Shown here piece after piece: positions 19,684 through 29,107 of a stretch of DNA of 64,000 nt. The position numbers were made by a program, and so were the translations under genes. The notes under the pieces are model-generated. The model worked only from the letters and a program-made list of their open reading frames with translations, was not told the DNA's origin and did no database searches. The stretch spans positions 229,361 through 293,360 of the forward strand of contig NZ_RXLQ01000009.1 of NCBI RefSeq assembly GCF_003953935.1, written 5' to 3'. The stretch comes from Massilia atriviolacea. Lineage in GTDB: Bacteria > Pseudomonadota > Gammaproteobacteria > Burkholderiales > Burkholderiaceae_D. The stretch's first letter is position 1. Each line of letters starts with the position of its first letter.

Positions 19684-20916
19684 CTACTTTACACCAAGCC
19701 CGGGCGCGCCGCGCAAGCCGGCGCGCTGGCGGTACCAGGGCGCCAGCGCCGGCCCGGCCATCGGGTGCGCCAGGTGGTAGCCCTGGCCGATGGTGCAACC
19801 GAGCGCGCGCACCAGGTCGGCGTCGGCCTCGGTCTCGATACCTTCGGCCACCACCCGCAAGCCCAGGCTGGAAGCGAGTTCGGTGATCGAGCACAGGATC
19901 AGCAAGCCTTTGTCGCTGGCGCCGGCGGCGCTCACGAAGCTGCGGTCGATCTTGATTTCGGTGACCGGCAGCGCAGCGATCCTTTGCAGCGAGGAATAGC
20001 CGATCCCGAAATCGTCGATGGCCAGTTCGACACCGTGCATGCGCAGGCGCACCACGGAATCGAGCAGATCGGCGGCGTGCTCGGGCAGCGCGGTCTCGGT
20101 CAGTTCCAGGGTAATGCGTTGCGCCGCGATGCCATAGGTACGCGCCAGCGCCAGCAGGCGATCCGCAAAATCATGGCGCTGCATGCTGCGCGGCGAGACG
20201 TTCAGCGACAGCCTGAGGGCGATGCCGGCGCCGTCCCAGCGTGCGCACCAGGCCAGCGCCTTGCCCAGCACGTGTTCGGTCAAGCCATCGAGCAAGCCCT
20301 CCTCCTCCATCAGGTCGATGAAGTGCTCGGGACCGATCACGCCCAGGCGCGGATGGCGCCAGCGTGCCAGGATCTCGACCTGGCGGCAAGCGCCGCCGCT
20401 GAGCGCGCACTGAGGCTGGAAATACGGCTCGAACTGGCCGGCGCCGAGCGCGCGCGCCAGCGTGGCCCGGCTCCAGCGCGCGCCGGCCGGGGCCGCGGCC
20501 GGCGGCGGCGTGGCGCGGGTGGCGGCCGCCAGCAGGCTCGCCAGGCGGGCCGGCTCGACCGGCTTGGGCAGCACGCCGGCCACGTCCAGCCCGTGCGCGC
20601 GCGCGCCCTGCATGGCACAAGCGAGCACCCCGCCATCGAAGGCGGACGAGAGCACGAAGCGGTACGCGCCCTGGGCGCCGGCGCGGCGCAGGAACGCCAT
20701 CCCATCCATGTCCGGCATCTTCAGGTCGACGATCACCAGGTCGGGCGCCTCGGGGCTGTCGGCCAGCACGGCCAGGCCGGCCGCACCGTCGCCCGCCGCC
20801 AGCGGCCGCGCCACCCCGAGCTGGCGCAGCAAGGCCAGCATCAGCGCGCGGTGCAGCGCGTCGTCGTCGACCACCAGCACCCGCAGCCCGGTCGGCGACG
20901 GGGCTGGCGCGCTCAC
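19684..20916 (-). CDS. Response regulator with EAL c-di-GMP phosphodiesterase domain
   Basis: The 410-residue protein has a receiver (about 10-125; phospho-Asp in VIVDLKMPD, Lys in LPKPVEP) and an EAL domain (about 145-395). Catalytic residues of active EAL enzymes are present: the Glu of VEILARW (EIL in place of EAL), the Asn of LNVSP, ELTET, IDDFGIGYSSL, the Lys of EIKIDRSF and VAEGIET. It should hydrolyse cyclic di-GMP under control of phosphorylation. The start is a GTG at 20916 that overlaps the stop of the preceding gene (GTGA). It is the last gene of a coupled set behind a chemoreceptor. Confidence 0.9.
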   Translation of the reverse strand: MSAPAPSPTGLRVLVVDDDALHRALMLALLRQLGVARPLAAGDGAAGLAVLADSPEAPDLVIVDLKMPDMDGMAFLRRAGAQGAYRFVLSSAFDGGVLACAMQGARAHGLDVAGVLPKPVEPARLASLLAAATRATPPPAAAPAGARWSRATLARALGAGQFEPYFQPQCALSGGACRQVEILARWRHPRLGVIGPEHFIDLMEEEGLLDGLTEHVLGKALAWCARWDGAGIALRLSLNVSPRSMQRHDFADRLLALARTYGIAAQRITLELTETALPEHAADLLDSVVRLRMHGVELAIDDFGIGYSSLQRIAALPVTEIKIDRSFVSAAGASDKGLLILCSITELASSLGLRVVAEGIETEADADLVRALGCTIGQGYHLAHPMAGPALAPWYRQRAGLRGAPGLGVK

Positions 20917-21524
20917 CGCCCACCCCGGAGCGGATCGGCACGGCCGAAGGCGCGCAGGGCCAGCGCCAGTTGTCCGCCGGCGCTGGCGGCATGCGCCTGC
21001 CCCCCGCAAAACAGCAGCACCGGCGCGGCGCCGTCCCAGCCGGCGTAGGCGGCCAGCAGCGCGGCCACCCCGCTCACCCCGCTGTCGGCGACCACCAGGC
21101 GAAAGCGCGCCCCGGCCAGCAAGGTGGCGGCGTCGGCGACGCTGGCCGCCAGCACCAGGTGGCAGCCAGGCTCCAGCAGCGCGGCCACGGTACGCCGCAG
21201 CGTTTCGTCGGTCTCGATCAGCAATACGCGCGGGGCGGGGCCGGCGCAAGCCGCTCCGGCGCGGGCGGCCTGGGCATCGAGCACGCAGCGGATCTGATAA
21301 GCCAGCTGGACGCGGTAGCTGGCCGCCAGCTCGAGCAGGGCCGCGATGCCCGGATGGGCGCCGCCCGCCGTCGCCGCAGCCAGCGTGCCCAGGCCGGCGG
21401 GCAGCTGTTCCGGCGTCCCTTCGTGCAGCAGGGTCATGGTGAATTCCTGGCGCATCTGTTCGAACAGTTCGGTGCTGCCGGCGGGCGCGCCGCCGGCGCT
21501 CTCATCGTGGGCGCGTGCCATCAT
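20913..21524 (-). CDS. Receiver-like protein with helical N-terminus, function unknown
   Basis: The 203-residue protein has an N-terminal helical segment (about 1-90, [19 protein letters not shown]...), resembling a phosphotransfer or dimerisation region. A receiver-like domain follows (about 100-200, [28 protein letters not shown]). The phospho-Asp position is kept but the usual Lys-Pro end is not recognisable, so the receiver may be non-canonical. The start at 21524 overlaps the chemoreceptor stop (ATGA), and its stop overlaps the GTG of the REC-EAL gene. It therefore appears to be the middle gene of a translationally coupled trio. Confidence 0.65.
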
Positions 21525-23152
21525 GCGTGCTCCCATGCGCGCGTGCGCGGGCCGGCCAGCGCCGCCGGCGCGCTGCGCCCGGCGCGCGGCTGGCGCGGCG
21601 GCGCGGCGCGCGCAACGGTAAAGGCGGCCACGACCTGGGACAACACGCCCGACTGCTGCTGCAGGGCCGCCGCCGCCGCGGCCGCCTGCTCCACCAGGGC
21701 CGCATTTTGCTGGGTCACGACATCCATCTCGCCGATGGCCTGGTTGATCTGCCCGATGCCCGCCTCCTGCTCGCCGCTGGCAGCGCCAATCTCGGCCATG
21801 ATATCGCTGACACGGCGCACGCTGGCGACGATCTCGTCCATCGTGCCGCCGGCCTGTTCGACCTGCCGGGCGCCGATACCGGCTTTCTCGACCGAGTCGC
21901 CGATGAGGGCCTTGATTTCGCGCGCCGCGCCGGCCGAGCGCTGCGCCAGGCTGCGTACCTCGGTGGCGACGACGGCGAAGCCGCGTCCCTGCTCGCCGGC
22001 GCGCGCAGCCTCCACCGCCGCGTTCAGGGCCAGGATATTGGTCTGGAAGGCGATGCTGTCGATGACGGCGATGATGTCGACGATCCTGCGCGATGCCTCG
22101 TTGATGTCGTGCATGGTGCCGACCACGCGCGCCACCGCCGCCCCGCCCTGTTGCGCCACATCCGATGCGCGCGCCGCCAGCGCGCTGGCCTGGCGCGCAT
22201 TGTCGGCATTGCGGCGCGCGATCGAGGTCATTTCTTCCATCGACGACGCGGTCTCTTCCAGCGAGCCGGCCTGGCGCTCGGTGCGCGCGGACAGGTCCAG
22301 ATTGCCGCTGGCAATCTGGCTCGACGCGGTGGCGATCGCATCGGTACCGCTGCGCACCTCGCCCACCACCGCCAGCAAGGCATCGTTCATGCCCTTCAGG
22401 GCCAGCAGCAGCTCGCCGGTTTCATCGGTCCGGTCGACCACGATGATGCTGGTCAGGTCGCCCGAGGCGACGGTCCTGGCCACCCGCAGCGCTTCGCCCA
22501 GCGGCACGGTGATCGAACGGGTGATCCAGCCGCCCAGGGCGAGCGCGGCAAGCAGGGCGGCCGCGCTCACGCCCAGCAGCTGGCTGCGTGCCGTCGCGAA
22601 GACCTGCTCGCCGTGCGTGCCGACTTCTTCGAACAGGCGCGCCTGCAAGGCGGTCTGCCTGCGCAGGGAAGCGACGAAGGCTTGCATGGCGGTATAGGCA
22701 TCGCCGTAGGCGAGCTGGCGCGCCTGCTCGCGCTGGCCATCCTTGAACAGCGCCTGTACCTGTGCGCACGCCTGCACGTAGCGGTCGCGCAGCGCCAGCG
22801 CTTCGGCATGGTTGGCTTTGCCCTGCTCGGTGCGCAACATCAGGCCCAGCTTGCCCAGGGCCTCATCGAAGGCGGCGCGGTTGGCCTCGAAACGGGCGAG
22901 CGCCTCCGCCGAGCGGGCCTCGTCGATCCCGGCCACCAGCTGGAACATCCGGGCGATACTGCCGCGCGCGTTATCGAGCGCCTCGCCTTCGAGCTTGGCC
23001 TTGGGCCAATGATTGTCGACCAGGATGGCCGCATCGTCGTGCAGGCGCATCAGATTGACGATGCCGAGGCTGGCGACGGTGGCCAGCAAGACCAGGACGA
23101 TGCCGAAGCCGAGGCAGAGGCGCCGGGCGATCGTGAGATTCAACAGTGTCAT
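21521..23152 (-). CDS. Methyl-accepting chemotaxis protein (first paralogue)
   Basis: A 543-residue transmembrane chemoreceptor with TM1 at about 10-32, a four-helix-bundle-type periplasmic domain (about 35-185) and TM2 at about 190-212. HAMP comes next (about 213-265), then the cytoplasmic signalling rod, whose hairpin tip [20 protein letters not shown] is typical. No CheR-binding pentapeptide is seen at the end (TRAWEHA). The ATG at 23152 has AGGAG 6 nt upstream and overlaps the end of a 30-codon leader ORF. It is paralogous to the next receptor upstream, and its own stop overlaps the receiver-like gene. The ligand is unknown. Confidence 0.93.
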
Positions 23153-23241
23153 GATGGGCTCCTGAAAAATGGCACGGCGCGGGCGCCGCGGGGCAAGGCA
23201 ATGGCGGGCGCGGTGGCGCCGCGAAAATCGGTATGGAACAT
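23149..23241 (-). CDS. Putative 30-residue leader peptide coupled to a chemoreceptor gene
   Basis: A short frame opens at an ATG at 23241 preceded by AAGGAG (4 nt spacing). It encodes 30 residues ([20 protein letters not shown], then [10 protein letters not shown]) and ends in a TGA overlapping the chemoreceptor ATG. Only the ribosome site and the overlap support it, and no similarity is recognised. It may couple or attenuate receptor translation, or be chance. Confidence 0.35.
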
Positions 23242-23520
23242 GCTGCTCCTTCGGTTCGGACAAGGTGATTGACAAGGACAAGCGGCCGTACAGCGGCAGC
23301 GGGCGAGCGCAGGGGGCGCGCGCTGGCATGAGGGTCGGTCGTGAAGCGGCGGGGTGGGGCCGAGGGGGAAACAGCGGCCGCCCGGACAGGGGCGGCCTTG
23401 AAAAACGATTCCGTGGCGCTATCCCGGCAACGGGGAGGGGTTGCGGGAGGGCCGCCGGGCAATGGCGGCGCGATCGGAACAAGCTGGCTACAGCATACCC
23501 TGAAAATTTCCCAAGAACAA
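23153..23520 (-). other. Long leader of the first chemoreceptor gene
   Basis: These 368 bp hold no full gene. They contain the 30-codon frame near the receptor and a hairpin-forming 27-bp block at 23420-23446 that is 25/27 identical to one before the other receptor. An AT-richer stretch near 23495-23520 may be the promoter. Confidence 0.5.
23420..23446 (-). repeat. Conserved leader hairpin, copy A
   Basis: On the transcript, GCAAC and GTTGC pair around CCCCTCCCC, followed by CGGGATA. The copy before the second receptor (25375-25401) differs at two bases, both in the loop, and lies at almost the same distance from its start codon (253 versus 268 bp). Confidence 0.55.
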
Positions 23521-25122
23521 CTAAATTGTCGACAAATCCTGCTGCCGCGATCGCGCCGCGACACCGGCCCGGGCGGGGGCGGCCAGCGTGAACGCGCCGA
23601 CCACGGTGGCCAGCTCGGCGGCCTGCTGGTTCAGCGCGGCGGCGGCGGCGGCGGCCTGTTCGACCAGGGCCGCGTTTTGCTGGGTCACGCTGTCCATGTC
23701 GCTGACGGCCCGGTTGATTTGCTCGATGCCGGCGTCCTGTTCGGCGCTGGCGGCGCTGATCTCGGCCATGATGTCGGTCACGCGCTGCACGCTGGCGACG
23801 ACCTCGCTCATGGTGCTGCCAGCCTCGCCGACCAGGGTCGTGCCGGACCCGACTTGCGCGACCGAATCGGCGATCAGGACCTTGATTTCCTTGGCCGCCG
23901 TCGCCGAGCGCTGCGCCAGGTTGCGCACTTCGGATGCGACCACCGCGAAGCCGCGGCCCTGCTCGCCCGCGCGGGCCGCCTCGACGGCGGCGTTCAGGGC
24001 CAGGATATTGGTCTGGAAGGCGATGCCGTCGATCACCGAGATGATGTCGACGATCTTGCGCGACGCTTCATTGATGCCGTTCATGGTATCGACCACGCGG
24101 CCCACCACGGCGCCGCCCTGGCGCGCCACCGCCGAGGCCGAAGCCGCCAGCAGCGTGGCCTGGCGCGCATTGCCGGCGTTCTGGCGCGTGGTCGAGGTGA
24201 TCTCTTCCATCGAGGAGGCGGTTTCTTCCAGCGCGCCGGCTTGCTGTTCGGTGCGCGCGGACAGGTCCAGATTGCCGCTGGCGATGTCGGCGGTCGCGCC
24301 GGCGATGCTGTCGGTGCCGCGGCGCACCTCGGCCACGATGCGCACCAGGTTGGCGTTCATTTGCCGCAGGGCCAGCATCAGGCGCCCCGTCTCGTCCTCG
24401 TCATGGCCCTCGATGATGCTGGTCAGGTCGCCCGCGGCGACGGTTTGCGCCACCGCCATCGCCGCCTTGATGGGCACGGTAATCGAGCGGGTGACGCGCC
24501 ACGCCAGCACGCCGCCGGCCAGCAGCGCCGCCGCGCTCAGCCAGAGTATCAGGGCGTGCGCCCACGCGTAGTTGGCGCCGGCGTCCTGGGCCTCCGCTTC
24601 CACCGCCTTGAGCTCGGCATCGATATGGTCGGCGATCGCATCCTGCCACTCCTGGGTCAGCGGTCCGGCGCGGCCGAGCAGCAGGGCCGTCGCTTCGGCC
24701 TGCTTGCCGGCGCGCGCCAGCACGAGGACGTCATCGTTGAGCGGCCGGACGCGTTGCTCGATGGCCGTCAGGCGCTCGACGAAAGCGTGCTCGGCGGCGT
24801 CCTGCGGCGTGGCAGCATAGGTCTTGAAGGCGGCTTCGTAGCGCTCGCGCGCCTTGACGATCTTGAGCGCCTCACGGTCCATGGCGGCCTGGTCCGACAG
24901 CAGGGCCATGGTGCGCGAAACACGGGCCACGATGTGCACCGATTCGGACAAATGGTGCAGCAGCTCGGTGCGCTGCAAATGTCCGTGCACGATGCTGTGC
25001 ATGTGTCCCTGCACGTTGCCCAGCGAACGCAGGCCGGTGCCGGCCAGCGCCAGCATCATGGCCAGCAGGACCGCGAAGCCGATGGCGAGGCGGGTACCGA
25101 TATTGTGTCGAGCGATCTTCAT
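23521..25122 (-). CDS. Methyl-accepting chemotaxis protein (second paralogue)
   Basis: The 533-residue receptor is built like its downstream neighbour: TM1 at about 10-32, a helical periplasmic domain (about 33-190), TM2 at about 192-212, HAMP (about 213-265), then the signalling rod with [20 protein letters not shown]. The cytoplasmic halves of the two receptors are closely similar while the periplasmic halves differ, suggesting duplication followed by sensor divergence. The ATG at 25122 has AAGGA 6 nt upstream. The C-terminus (RQQDLSTI) has no CheR tether. The ligand is unknown. Confidence 0.93.
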
Positions 25123-25524
25123 GGTCAATCCTTTTTGTGAATCGGGCCATCCCTGCCTGGCGGACTGCGGCGCCTGCCGGGGAGACGGCGAACCCGGGAG
25201 AGCGGCGGCCTGGCGCTGCCGCTCTCCCGGTATCGAAGGGGAGCGCACGCCGGGTGGCAGGATGCGGGAATGGCGCACCGGCACGCTGGCGCACGGTCGT
25301 GGAGCGGCGGGAGCTGGGCCGGGAAAACAGGCGATGTCCACCGCGAAGGGGGTGGCCCGCACAAGGTCGACTGGTATCCCGGCAACGAGGAAGGGTTGCG
25401 GCGGCGGTGCGGGCGCCGATACCATCGAAGCGACAGGGCCAGCTTACGCTCGAAATTTCCATATGGCAATAATTATCGGTGGCGCCGTTGCGCATCCGTC
25501 ACGCGCCCACGCCGCGCGCCGGGC
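25123..25524 (-). other. Long leader of the second chemoreceptor gene
   Basis: These 402 bp have no supported gene. They contain copy B of the conserved hairpin (25375-25401) and, nearer the gene, a perfect 13-bp stem CCGGGAGAGCGGC/GCCGCTCTCCCGG (25194-25230) without a T-run. An AT-rich patch at about 25445-25485 is the likely promoter. Confidence 0.5.
25375..25401 (-). repeat. Conserved leader hairpin, copy B
   Basis: Matches copy A at 25 of 27 positions, keeping both stem arms and the flanking CCGGGATA. Sequence around the block is otherwise poorly conserved between the two leaders. Confidence 0.55.
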
Positions 25525-26169
25525 CTACTTGCGCTCGCGCCGCGGCCCCAGGCGCGGATCGGCGAAGTTGAGCGCTTCGGCCGCCGCCAGCAGTTCGGCC
25601 GCCACGTCGTTGAGCTTCCTCTGGTGCGAGCGCGCGTGCTCGCGCAGCATCTGGAACGCGCTGTCGCGATCGGTGCGGTGGCGTTCCATCAGCACCCCGA
25701 CCGCCATCCCCACTTCGCGCCCCTGCTGCAGGGCCAGGGTCAGGCGGCCCTCGTTGCCGCGCAACTGGCGCAGTTCGTCCGCGCGCGCCAGCGCCGCCTG
25801 CACGCTGGGGGCGATGCGCGCGGTATCGACCGGCTTGACCAGGTAGCCCACGGCACCGCCGTCGATCGCCTGGCGCACGGTGGCCTGGTCGTCATTGCCC
25901 GACAAGAACATCACCGGGATATCGCCGTCGGCATGCAGGCGTTCGGCCAGCTCCAGGCCGGACATGCCCGGCATGCTCACGTCCAGCAGCGCCAGGTCGG
26001 GCACGCGGCCGCTCTCGGCCAGCATCGCCAGCGCCATCGCGCCGCTGGTGGCGATGCGCACCTCGTAGCCGGCCAGCTGCAGGAATTTGCCGAGCAGCCC
26101 GAGGATCAGCACATCGTCGTCGACCAGCAGGATCAGGCGTTTGGCGGCAGGCGCCGCGGGGCCGCTCAT
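25525..26169 (-). CDS. Response regulator with ANTAR RNA-binding domain
   Basis: The 214-residue protein has a receiver (about 10-125; acidic DDD, phospho-Asp in LLDVSMPGM, Lys in LVKPVD) and an ANTAR domain (about 135-195, LALQQGREVGMAVGVLMERH). ANTAR proteins bind paired-hexaloop RNA hairpins and act as antiterminators when phosphorylated. The ATG at 26169 overlaps the stop of the preceding receiver gene (ATGA). The hybrid kinase two genes upstream is the likely phosphodonor. Its RNA targets are unknown. The hairpin leaders of the nearby chemoreceptors are worth testing. Confidence 0.88.
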   Translation of the reverse strand: MSGPAAPAAKRLILLVDDDVLILGLLGKFLQLAGYEVRIATSGAMALAMLAESGRVPDLALLDVSMPGMSGLELAERLHADGDIPVMFLSGNDDQATVRQAIDGGAVGYLVKPVDTARIAPSVQAALARADELRQLRGNEGRLTLALQQGREVGMAVGVLMERHRTDRDSAFQMLREHARSHQRKLNDVAAELLAAAEALNFADPRLGPRRERK

Positions 26170-26582
26170 GGCTGCGCTCCGCGCGTGTACCTGGCCAGCA
26201 CATCGGCAATCTTCTTGGGCGTATAGGGCTTGACCACGAAGCCGGCGGCGCCGCCGCTGAGGGAGGACATGACGTTGTCGACGGCGCTGTCGGCGCTGAC
26301 GATAATGCAATCGCACGCCGGACAGCAATGCTTCGCCAGGGCCAGCAGTTCGATGCCGGAAAAACCGGGCATGTGAATGTCCAGAAAAGCCAGGCCGAGC
26401 GAAGGTCCCTCCTGGCGCATCAGGTCGAGCGCCTGCTGGCCGTCGGCGGCGAACAGGACATGCTGGAAGCCGCAGCGCTTGAGTATGCTCGCCAGCAAGT
26501 CGCGCATCAGGCGCTCGTCGTCGGCGATCAGGACAGTAGTGTCGTGCTTGCTTACCGGCGCCATGCCGCCCATCGTGTTCAT
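26166..26582 (-). CDS. Single-domain response regulator (CheY-like)
   Basis: A 138-residue stand-alone receiver: acidic pair in LIADDERLM, phospho-Asp in AFLDIHMPG, Ser in VSAD in place of Thr, Lys in VVKPYTP. The start at 26582 overlaps the stop of the hybrid kinase (ATGA), and its stop overlaps the ANTAR gene. It is clearly paralogous to the receiver at 29219-29608 (shared AFLDI-MPG-SG-E-LAL and [11 protein letters not shown]). It probably relays phosphate from the kinase's HPt domain. Confidence 0.9.
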
Positions 26583-29107
26583 GTCGTCTCTCCCGTGGTT
26601 CCCGTGTTTGCCGGCGCGCGCCGGTTCCCCTGCGCCGCCGCCATGACGCGTCGCACCTCATCCAAGGCGTTCAGGTCGGCCAGCAGGCGCGCCGCCGTGG
26701 CGCGCTCGCCGCACAGCAGCGCCTGCTCGATCGCGCCGGCCAGCCCGGTCACGCGCGGAAAGCCGAAGCTGGCGGCACTGCCCTTGAGCATATGCGCCAG
26801 ATCCGCCGCGGCCTGGTCGGCGCCCTGTTCCAGCAGCGCCGCCAGCTGCGCCAGGCGCGCAATCAGGCTGGCCTCGAACGCGCGCACCAGGTCGTCGTAG
26901 TTGTCCAGCTCGTCCAGGCCGAACGGCGCCAGGACCGCGGCCGGCGCCAGCAGGCGTGCCAGCAGCGCATCCATGCGCGCCATGTCGAGCGGCTTGCCGA
27001 GACAGTCCGAACAGCCGGCCGCAAGGTAGCGCGCCACGTCCTCGGGCATGACGTTGGCGGTCAGGGCGACGATCGGGCAGGTCAGCCCGGCCGCGCGCAG
27101 CAGCCGGGTGGCAGCGACGCCATCCATGACCGGCATCTGGATATCCATCAGGATCAGGTCGAATTCGACCGCCAGCGCCCGCTCCACCGCCTGGGCGCCA
27201 TTGTCGGCCAGCTCGCAGGACAGCCCGCGCCGCCCCAGGAATGCGCCGATCAGGGTACGGTTATCGGGCCCGTCCTCGGCCAGCAGGACCCGCCCCTGCA
27301 ACTGTGCCACGCCGCCCTCGGCCGGGCCCGGGCGCGTCTGCGGCGGCGCGGCGTCGAGCCAGCCGGCTCCCTCGGGCGCGGCGGCCGGGATCGTGATGTC
27401 GAAGCGCGAGCCCTGGCCCGCCGTGCTGGCGACCGTCACCGCGCCGCCCATCTTGGTGGCCAGCTCGCGCACCAGGTACAAGCCGAGGCCGGTGCCGCCG
27501 AAGCGGCGCGTGGTGGCGCTGTCGGCTTGCGAAAACGGCTTGAACAACTGGGCCAGCTGGGCCTCGGACATGCCGATCCCGGTATCGCTCACCGCGCACG
27601 CCAGCAGGCCGCGCGCGGCGTCGTAGCGCAAGGTCATCGTCACCGCGCCCAGTTCGGTAAACTTGATGGCATTGCCGCACAGGTTGAACAATACCTGCTT
27701 CCAGCGCGTCGGGTCTCCCAGCACCCGGGCCGGCAAGGGGTAGTCGATGCGCAGGATGAAATCGATGCCCTTGCTGCGGGCCTGGGCGCTCATCACCGAC
27801 TCCACGCCCCAGGCCGTCTCGGCGGGAGAAAACGGGACGTGTTCGAGGCCGAGGCGGCCCGCTTCGATCTTGGCCAGGTCGAGAATATCGTTGATCACGC
27901 TGAGCAGGTGCTGGCCGTTGCGCAAGATGACCTGGCCGGCCTCGCCCCGCAGCGCCGGCTCGGCGGCGCTGCCGAGCAGTTCGGCAAAGCCGATGATCGA
28001 GGTCAGCGGGGTACGGATTTCATGGCTCATCATGGTCAGGAAATCGGACTTGGCGCGGTTGGCGGCGTCGGCCTTGAGCATCAGGGAGCGGGTCAGTTCC
28101 AGGTCTTGCTCGCGCCGCCGCAGCAGGCGGTACAGCACCAGCGAGGCGAACAGCACCGCCGCGCCCGCCACGATGGCCAGCAGCAGGCGCACCATGCTGA
28201 ATTCGCGCCAGCGCGCCAGCAGCAAGTCTTCGGAAATGGTCAGGTTGACGATCAGCGGATAATTGCCCACCATGCGCGGCGCCCCCATGCGCAGCACCGG
28301 GGCGCCCCCTTCGGCGAAGCGCGGCGTCGAGGTCAGGACCACGTCATCGCGCTTGCCCATCAGTTCGACGACCTGGAAGGTCGAGCCGGTGCGGTTGACC
28401 TTGCCGATGAGTTCGTCGACATGCGGCCAGCGCGCCAGCAGGGTGAAGTCGCGCCGGTAGAGCGAGATGCTGGCCCCCTCCCCGAGCGTGATTTTCTTGT
28501 AGAACTCGGCCAGCGAGGCACAGGAAAAGCCGACCAGCACCACGCCCAGCCATTCTCCCTTGGGACCGCTCAGGCGCCGGCTCAGGTAGAACGTCCACTG
28601 TCCGTTGCCCTTGTTGCGCACCGGCTGGCTGATGAACAGCGCGCGCCCCGGGTCGCGCCGGTGGGCGCGGAAATAGTCGCGGTCGGCCAGATTGATCGGC
28701 GGCGCCGGCCATGCGCGCGTGAAGTTGACAACGTCGCCGTTGGCCGCCACGATGGTGACCACGTCGACCTGGGGCAGGCCGCGCGTCTTGTCGCGCATGC
28801 TCTCGAACATGGCCTGCCCGCCCATCCGCGCGCGCAGGGCGGCGTCGCTGTCGATCCCGGCGGCCTGCACCGAGTCGGCCACGCTGTCGAGCACCAGCGA
28901 CGCCGAGCTTACCTGCTGGCCGATGTGCTCGGCCAGCACCAGCGACAGGTTGCTGAGCTGCTTGCGCCATTCGCCGACGGTCTGCTTGCGCGCCGTCCAG
29001 CTGGCCGCCCCGAGCACCGACACGATCGCCACGAACAGAAAGCCCCCGAACAGCAAGGCGATCTGGCTGGAGCGAAGTTGGTAACGCGGGCGATCGCGGG
29101 TCGGCAT
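26579..29107 (-). CDS. Hybrid sensor histidine kinase with receiver and HPt domains
   Basis: The 842-residue tripartite kinase has TM1 (about 15-36), a periplasmic double-cache-like domain (about 40-295) and TM2 (about 306-328). The cytoplasmic part has a HisKA with His362 in SHEIRTP, an ATPase (about 465-575; N box [23 protein letters not shown]), a receiver with Asp655 (LILMDIQMP) and an HPt domain with His772 ([12 protein letters not shown]). This is the full His-Asp-His relay, which would pass phosphate to a separate receiver, most simply the gene coupled to it by ATGA. The signal is unknown. Confidence 0.93.

Follow-up and report, generated by a model that had tools for sequence, protein, structure and literature searches.

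The window analysed here is a stretch of 64,000 nucleotides from Massilia atriviolacea (contig NZ_RXLQ01000009.1, positions 229,361 to 293,360), in which two chemoreceptor genes carry long leaders with a shared hairpin block, next to the gene of a response regulator with a receiver and an ANTAR domain (REC-ANTAR). Our analysis points, with reservations set out below, to leader RNAs whose C-rich loops are recognised by a divergent ANTAR subfamily. All features described in the window lie on the minus strand. Domain searches bore out the genes described in an earlier note on this DNA, namely two chemoreceptors with the REC-ANTAR gene directly upstream. The cluster comprises a hybrid histidine kinase with HisKA, HATPase, REC and Hpt domains (26579–29107; a dCache-like sensor scores below the Pfam cut-off), a single-domain response regulator (REC, 26166–26582), the REC-ANTAR protein (25525–26169; placed in a divergent subfamily by domain match and residue comparison) and two 4HB-HAMP-MCP chemoreceptors, MCP2 (23521–25122) and MCP1 (21521–23152). 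Most of the length of MCP1 and MCP2 can be aligned at 52% identity, rising to 71% in the signalling half. The REC-ANTAR protein is 86% identical to a protein of M. rubra CCM 8692, its nearest named record. Downstream of MCP1 and in the same orientation lies a gene for a REC-EAL protein (19684–21249), a cyclic di-GMP phosphodiesterase-type member of the cluster. Among the 20 matches listed from a search of 1,788 plasmid records, only the coding part of MCP2 was matched.

The two copies of a 27-bp block, at 23420–23446 and 25375–25401, are identical at 25 of 27 positions and lie 268 bp before the MCP1 ATG (23152) and 253 bp before the MCP2 ATG (25122), as the earlier note had placed them. No third copy with up to 3 mismatches was found in the window, and no match of this quality arose in 100 shuffles of the sequence. 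Both mismatches are loop positions, CCCUCCCC versus CCUUCCUC on the transcribed strand, and the stem is identical. The flanks have indeed diverged: the leaders can be aligned over their whole length at 63% identity, and the block is the best 27-column window of that alignment (93%, against a median window of 52%). Across the genome of the window strain, a relaxed version of the hairpin pattern, allowing 2 mismatches, matched only these two places; the control, the same pattern read backwards, gave 1 match. Conservation also extends beyond the block, to a promoter-like pair, two further helices (P1 and P2) and the region of a possible hairpin, P5.

A predicted three-way junction in the leaders

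The block is one arm, P3, of a predicted three-way-junction RNA in which P1 encloses a variable hairpin, P2, and P3. The junction spans 23408–23480 in the MCP1 leader and 25367–25428 in the MCP2 leader, where it is the minimum-energy fold of each sequence on its own (z −2.9 for MCP1; z −1.8 for MCP2, with 12 of 200 shuffles as good). Folding the full leader gives it again for MCP1 and, at least in its inner part, for MCP2. P2 occupies 23451–23469 and 25403–25417; the P3 stem-loops, read from the fold and a five-leader alignment, occupy 23422–23448 and 25379–25401. A search of the leaders with 4227 Rfam models gave no relevant match.

Five leaders from three Massilia genomes (the window strain, M. 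rubra and a third species, G016) could be aligned. In both M. rubra and G016 the leader precedes a cheW gene (CheW by Pfam), which sits between the leader and an MCP2-like gene (L026:3291-4061 and L027:3239, respectively); the window has no cheW at that place, and the leader stands directly before MCP2. M. rubra holds a second copy before an MCP1-like gene that is broken early (L026:6820-7343), and across the full aligned block the hairpin there is identical to window copy 1. Either that gene decayed only recently, or the leader RNA serves some purpose independent of it. A covariance model of the junction, R1, recovered its five building sequences at E 1e-14 or better in 3 of 17 genomes of the genus. 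Among 245 family genomes nothing as strong was found beyond these five copies, the next best match having an E value of 2.3e-4 (G030).

Four of the five core sequences fold alone into the junction as their minimum-energy structure. In the alignment, 85.2% of cells pair, compared with 24.5–44.6% when the partners are slid. Two-sided changes occupy 15 cells, versus 7.0 in shuffles, a count that none of 500 shuffles reached; they fall in nine pairs, 7 in P1, 2 in P2 and none in P3, whose stem varies only from A-U to G-U and at unpaired ends. The covariation looked for in following up the earlier note thus exists in P1 and P2 and is absent from the stem of the block itself. Similarly, the proposal of a cis-acting RNA hairpin holds insofar as the leader is a structured RNA, of which the block is merely one arm.

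A promoter-like pair with a 17-nt spacer can be read in all five aligned leaders, as TTGTTC-N17-TATGCT before the MCP1 leader (23492–23520) and TTGCCA-N17-TAAGCT before the MCP2 leader (25441–25469). The leader RNA is probably transcribed, starting just 3′ of this pair. Downstream of the junction, the consensus fold contains a hairpin, P4 (23376–23398 and 25338–25357). Further 3′, whole-leader folds place the possible hairpin P5, of the form CGGC-[8–9-nt C-rich loop]-GCCG, with loop CCCACCCC in the MCP1 leader (23347–23362) and CCAGCUCCC in the MCP2 leader (25305–25321). P3 and P5 are 59 and 57 nt apart in the two leaders, with P4 between them.

The ends of the leaders bear on the earlier suggestion of antitermination. 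A terminator-like hairpin followed by TTTTT (23164–23190) lies just before the MCP1 Shine-Dalgarno sequence; the MCP2 leader has only a weak terminator-like site, and neither site overlaps P5. Antitermination in these leaders is accordingly no more than conjectural. The MCP1 hairpin lies inside a 30-codon upstream open reading frame (23149–23241) with its own Shine-Dalgarno-like stretch, whose TGA overlaps the MCP1 ATG, and translation-coupled attenuation at MCP1 is therefore possible. The M. rubra leader has a similar frame of 43 codons (L026:7023), with the same start (M-x-HTDF) and the same end (RSPS). Sequestration of the ribosome site or start codon as a feature common to all Massilia leaders was rejected, as it was not found in the five whole-leader folds: the MCP2 ribosome site pairs with the 3′ region of P1 (p about 0.86), that of the pseudogene leader does so partly, and those of the other leaders pair elsewhere.

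C-rich loops downstream of divergent REC-ANTAR genes

The commonest form of P5, the 16-mer CGGCCCARCTCCGCCG, differs from the form in the window leaders. Searching for it without mismatches gave 17 sites in 14 of 17 genus genomes, and 16 of them lie 188–284 nt past the end of a REC-ANTAR match (one of these frames is broken, in a genome that is 48% complete, G006). The 17th (L185:1501-1516) lies before a single-domain REC gene, about 24 nt from its start codon. Two of the 16 are at the window-type locus and 14 at a second REC-ANTAR locus, whose proteins are 52–56% identical to that of the window where identity is given.

A second covariance model, R2, was built from the 14 second-locus leaders alone, without any MCP or cheW leader. 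In its training alignment 95.4% of cells are paired and 6 are two-sided, versus 1.4 in shuffles (0/500); the number of two-sided pairs, 2, was reached by 170 of 500 shuffles. In a search of 113 kb, R2 ranked first a locus holding one of its own training sequences, followed by the cheW leaders of M. rubra (E 5.8e-4) and G016 (1.1e-3) and the window MCP1 leader (4.8e-3; 23328–23434, which includes P5), with L185 (0.03) and the M. rubra pseudogene leader (0.073) further down. The likeness of R2 to the MCP and cheW leaders thus appears as a high rank in a small search, yet is weak.

Among 245 family genomes, 19 from outside the genus had an R2 match at E 0.001 or better, and the loci of 15 of these, from six genera, were examined. 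In 13 of the 15, a REC-ANTAR match (54–57% identity) ends 71–184 nt upstream; the remaining 2 precede a CheW gene and a REC gene, respectively, the latter with an Hpt match below its cut-off. These 13 are not independent events, because one genus supplies 8 of the 15 loci and the ANTAR genes are likely orthologues; two pairs among the 15 are more than 90% alike. For the REC-ANTAR gene, which the earlier note had linked to the block by adjacency, the 16-mer and R2 now provide a comparative link.

R2 also matched a tandem C-loop leader before a dCache-PAS protein elsewhere in the genome of the window strain (C1:243602-243710, L229:1501-1609; E 3.7e-4), with no ANTAR gene in a 3.1-kb stretch around it, which makes it a candidate trans target. 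The site has a counterpart in another species (R2 E 3.7e-3). A further weak R2 match, L230, has neither the hairpin nor an ANTAR gene and was taken as chance.

Similar hairpins recur downstream of REC-ANTAR homologues, most of them from Beta- and Gammaproteobacteria. The strict rule for a C-loop hairpin was formed after the training loci had been seen, so the fresh tests are only its application to new loci, the C counts of loops at hold-out loci and the non-genus R2 loci above. Training used 48 of 58 loci, with ten Massilia/Duganella loci set apart and leaders shorter than 300 nt left out. New loci came from a class-wide search that matched 25 of 369 genomes; 2 of 26 loci were dropped for length, and none is a near copy of any training locus. 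In training, 29 of 48 loci had a C-loop hairpin and 9 of 48 had two close together, compared with 497 and 18 of 3014 other 350-nt pieces, 139 and 7 of 960 shuffles, and 5 and 0 of 48 antisense strands. At the new loci the corresponding figures were 11 and 2 of 24 (one locus being counted twice, as L200 and L213), compared with 39 and 1 of 246 elsewhere and 4 and 1 of 24 antisense. Without any letter rule, loops with at least 4 C made up 20 of 28 on the sense strand of 23 new loci (L213 omitted), 5 of 33 antisense and 55 of 221 elsewhere; in training they made up 24 of 50, 6 of 45 and 791 of 2773, respectively. The density of C-loop hairpins is 2.37 per kb on the sense strand, 0.06 antisense and about 0.32 elsewhere. 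Ten downstream proteins, picked for their signalling look from a list in which several others look non-signalling, comprise four MCPs (L038, L048, L051, L057), two 4HB-PAS-HWE kinases (L070, L073), a REC-SpoIIE protein (L049), a GGDEF-EAL protein (L066), one with PAS alone (L065) and one with no Pfam match (L036).

Ten leaders from methylotrophs and from relatives of Gallionella align well. In their hairpins A and B, whose loops include CCUGACCCC and CCAGAACAC, 97.1% of cells pair, with 5 two-sided pairs versus 1.4 and 8 two-sided cells versus 1.5 in shuffles (both 0/500). The 3′ half of hairpin B can alternatively pair with the start-codon region (84.5% paired), and the consensus fold prefers that pairing. 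As the two structures exclude each other, the models suggest translational control in these leaders.

The proteins differ from canonical ANTAR regulators at the RNA contacts. In the EutV–RNA structure, as far as the part of PMC8934654 drawn on here describes it, hexaloop base G4 stacks against Tyr164, with Arg142, Lys149 and Glu160 holding it. EutV numbering was transferred with an assumed offset of 2, which ten compared residues fit. In the window protein, Arg142 is replaced by Gly, Lys149 by Val and Glu160 by Arg. Across 83 rows of the subfamily, Arg142 and Lys149 are kept in none and Glu160 in 19; position 164 has Phe in 72 rows and Tyr in 2, and Arg168 is kept in 82. In 12 Firmicute-type ANTARs, Arg142, Lys149 and Glu160 are each kept in all 12. 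The 83/12 split was made after the residues had been seen and is borne out by the record names checked, except that L069 and L101 are unclassified; ten rows were dropped as not ANTAR or too short. Met172 is Arg in 81 of the 83 rows; as a telling change it was given less weight, Met being kept in only 4 of 12 Firmicute-type rows. The contact residues are changed in the subfamily that has changed loops, so the two go together. A third ANTAR protein of the same genome, NasT-like (L247:904-1680, C12), keeps the canonical residues, judged by eye; its gene is followed by what reads in translation as a NasS-like gene, and the protein offers a natural specificity control.

Hairpins with the canonical hexaloop (A1 and G4) are not enriched after these ANTAR genes, at 0.81 per kb versus 0.88 elsewhere (80 loci), for which reason the hexaloop was rejected as the target; the positive comparison, with Firmicutes, is weak (0.83 versus 0.55 per kb, 12 loci). 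None of the window loops (CCCUCCCC, CCUUCCUC, CCCACCCC and CCAGCUCCC) is such a hexaloop. The spacing from P3 to P5 exceeds the linker of 2–25 nt given for canonical ANTAR RNAs in the part of PMC8164766 drawn on. The window protein does carry its ANTAR domain after a receiver domain, by domain search, and tandem stem-loops are possible in the leaders, P3 forming in its own fold and P5 in full folds, though the consensus fold pairs the P5 strand elsewhere. Judged by sequence, membership in the canonical ANTAR target family fails on loop and linker.

Readings of the leader RNA

Computation supports the structure of the leader and shows its covariation, its association with ANTAR genes and the altered protein residues. 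The best explanation, to which we give a rough probability of 0.58, is that a divergent ANTAR subfamily recognises the leader RNA by its C-rich loops. On this reading, the cluster of kinase, REC and REC-ANTAR proteins would sense a signal; the activated ANTAR protein would bind 8–9-nt C-rich loops on GC-closed stems (P3 and P5); and binding would shift the fold of the leader and so control the MCP message, or the cheW message in the relatives. In the methylotroph/Gallionella form, binding at hairpin B would free the start codon. For Massilia, we infer the transcription start, the binding by ANTAR, the direction of control and its translational or termination output. P5 may also take part in a switch, as modelling gives it a competing, mutually exclusive pairing. 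In the second-locus leader of the window strain (L172, C54), GGCCGA pairs with UCGGCC between two 3′ hairpins in the minimum-energy fold, a strand exchange that is a possible built-in switch.

Several observations weigh against this explanation. P5 appears in 3 of 5 whole-leader folds (those of MCP1, MCP2 and M. rubra cheW), the five-leader consensus fold pairs the 5′ strand of P5 next to P4 instead, and in L172 the hairpins equivalent to P4 and P5 yield to the pairing between strands. The junction with P1 likewise forms in whole-leader folds of only 3 of 5, the same three leaders, and is limited to three genomes; one M. rubra copy stands before a broken MCP gene. The nine two-sided pairs are also reached by 19 of 500 shuffles, at least as many pair types arise in 415 of 500, and P3 lacks two-sided covariation across the five leaders. 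A consensus scan of the leaders reported no sigma-70 site. In the 113-kb search R2 matches the MCP2 leader only partly (E 1.3), and genome-wide at E 0.01 it reports no MCP or cheW leader. Under the strict rule, many training and new loci have no C-loop hairpin, and few have two. The start-codon pairing of the methylotroph/Gallionella leaders barely beats shuffles (78/500; score 12/500) and is not common to the Massilia leaders. We graded the explanation lower because P5 competes with another pairing, because of the 3 of 5 whole-leader junctions and because of the genome-wide miss of R2.

The alternative that survives best, though we consider it unlikely, is a structured leader RNA that the ANTAR protein does not read: its C-rich loops would act in trans by pairing with G-rich RNA, or would serve as loading sites for Rho, and the adjacency would be old synteny. 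The loops and the leaders are C-rich, the leaders being G-poor, and C-rich loops that pair in trans are reportedly found in small RNAs such as sX13 of Xanthomonas. Part of the association is moreover explained by synteny, since most ANTAR-adjacent matches are orthologues of a single locus. Against this alternative stand the presence of the element next to an ANTAR gene at 13 of the 15 loci from six other genera, the recurrence of C-rich loops at diverged loci, and the altered contact residues that accompany altered loops.

Duplication was named in the earlier note as the simplest rival. The receptor gene would have been copied along with its leader, with the block just the portion that has diverged most slowly. 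The likeness of MCP1 to MCP2 and of their leaders over the whole length speaks for it, and it does account for the origin of the leaders. It leaves unexplained the paired changes in P1 and P2 and the same leader before cheW in two other species, and the P5 sequence and R2 match are common with leaders of the second REC-ANTAR locus; as a full account it is improbable. Somewhat less probable again is a canonical target: the true site would be an A1/G4 hexaloop in some other part of the leader, and the C-rich loops would play no role. Both cheW leaders contain GACG-ACCGUU-CGUC, such a hexaloop as read in the alignment, and a single hexaloop may suffice according to the part of PMC8934654 drawn on. 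This hairpin was not seen in the two window leaders, such hexaloops are not enriched at the 80 loci, and the residues that contact G4 are lost. A DNA operator, with the inverted repeat as a protein site near the promoter, would fit the closeness of the block to the promoter-like pair and is very improbable, since arms that vary between leaders with pairing kept, and C-rich loops concentrated on the sense strand, are the pattern of an RNA.

Reading by the divergent ANTAR subfamily stays the preferred explanation, and the C-rich-loop hairpins right after one unusual ANTAR branch suggest a second kind of RNA signal. In its broadest form the proposal is tentative and, in our estimate, falls short of even odds: a Beta- and Gammaproteobacterial ANTAR subfamily would read a second RNA code, of GC-closed hairpins with 8–9-nt C-rich loops in place of A1/G4 hexaloops, controlling a chemotaxis and signalling regulon (MCP, cheW, dCache-PAS and REC genes), partly in trans, via start-codon access or leader termination. 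Few response regulators have RNA as their target; ANTAR proteins are among them. If the proposal is true, the expression of chemoreceptors and cheW would be under post-initiation control by a two-component system. Searches for ANTAR targets use the hexaloop model and would miss these leaders, and the changed contact residues together with the changed loop make the specificity question directly testable.

Relation to known RNA systems

The sX13 small RNA of Xanthomonas is said to expose C-rich loops that pair in trans. It differs from the present element in being a separate trans-acting small RNA, not a leader tied to an ANTAR gene. No account of C-rich-loop ANTAR targets came up in searches of open-licence papers.

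The nearest parallels are the dual-hexaloop leaders of the eut, ami and nas systems, which, in the parts of PMC3369931 and PMC8934654 drawn on, likewise combine a REC-ANTAR regulator, tandem hairpins and a competing fold; a putative ANTAR target overlapping the beginning of an MCP gene is also mentioned (PMC3369931, in part). Compared with what those parts describe, the loops here are 8–9 nt long, C-rich and without an A1/G4 hexaloop, an extra three-way junction is predicted, and no general intrinsic terminator was seen in the leaders (PMC3369931, PMC8934654); the protein lacks Arg142 and Lys149, the contacts of G4 (PMC8934654). The actinobacterial ANTAR RNAs, as far as the part of PMC8164766 used here goes, are similar in being divergent RNAs that needed a broadened search model. 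They differ in keeping the dual-hexaloop form, A1 and G4 being conserved in more than 50% (PMC8164766).

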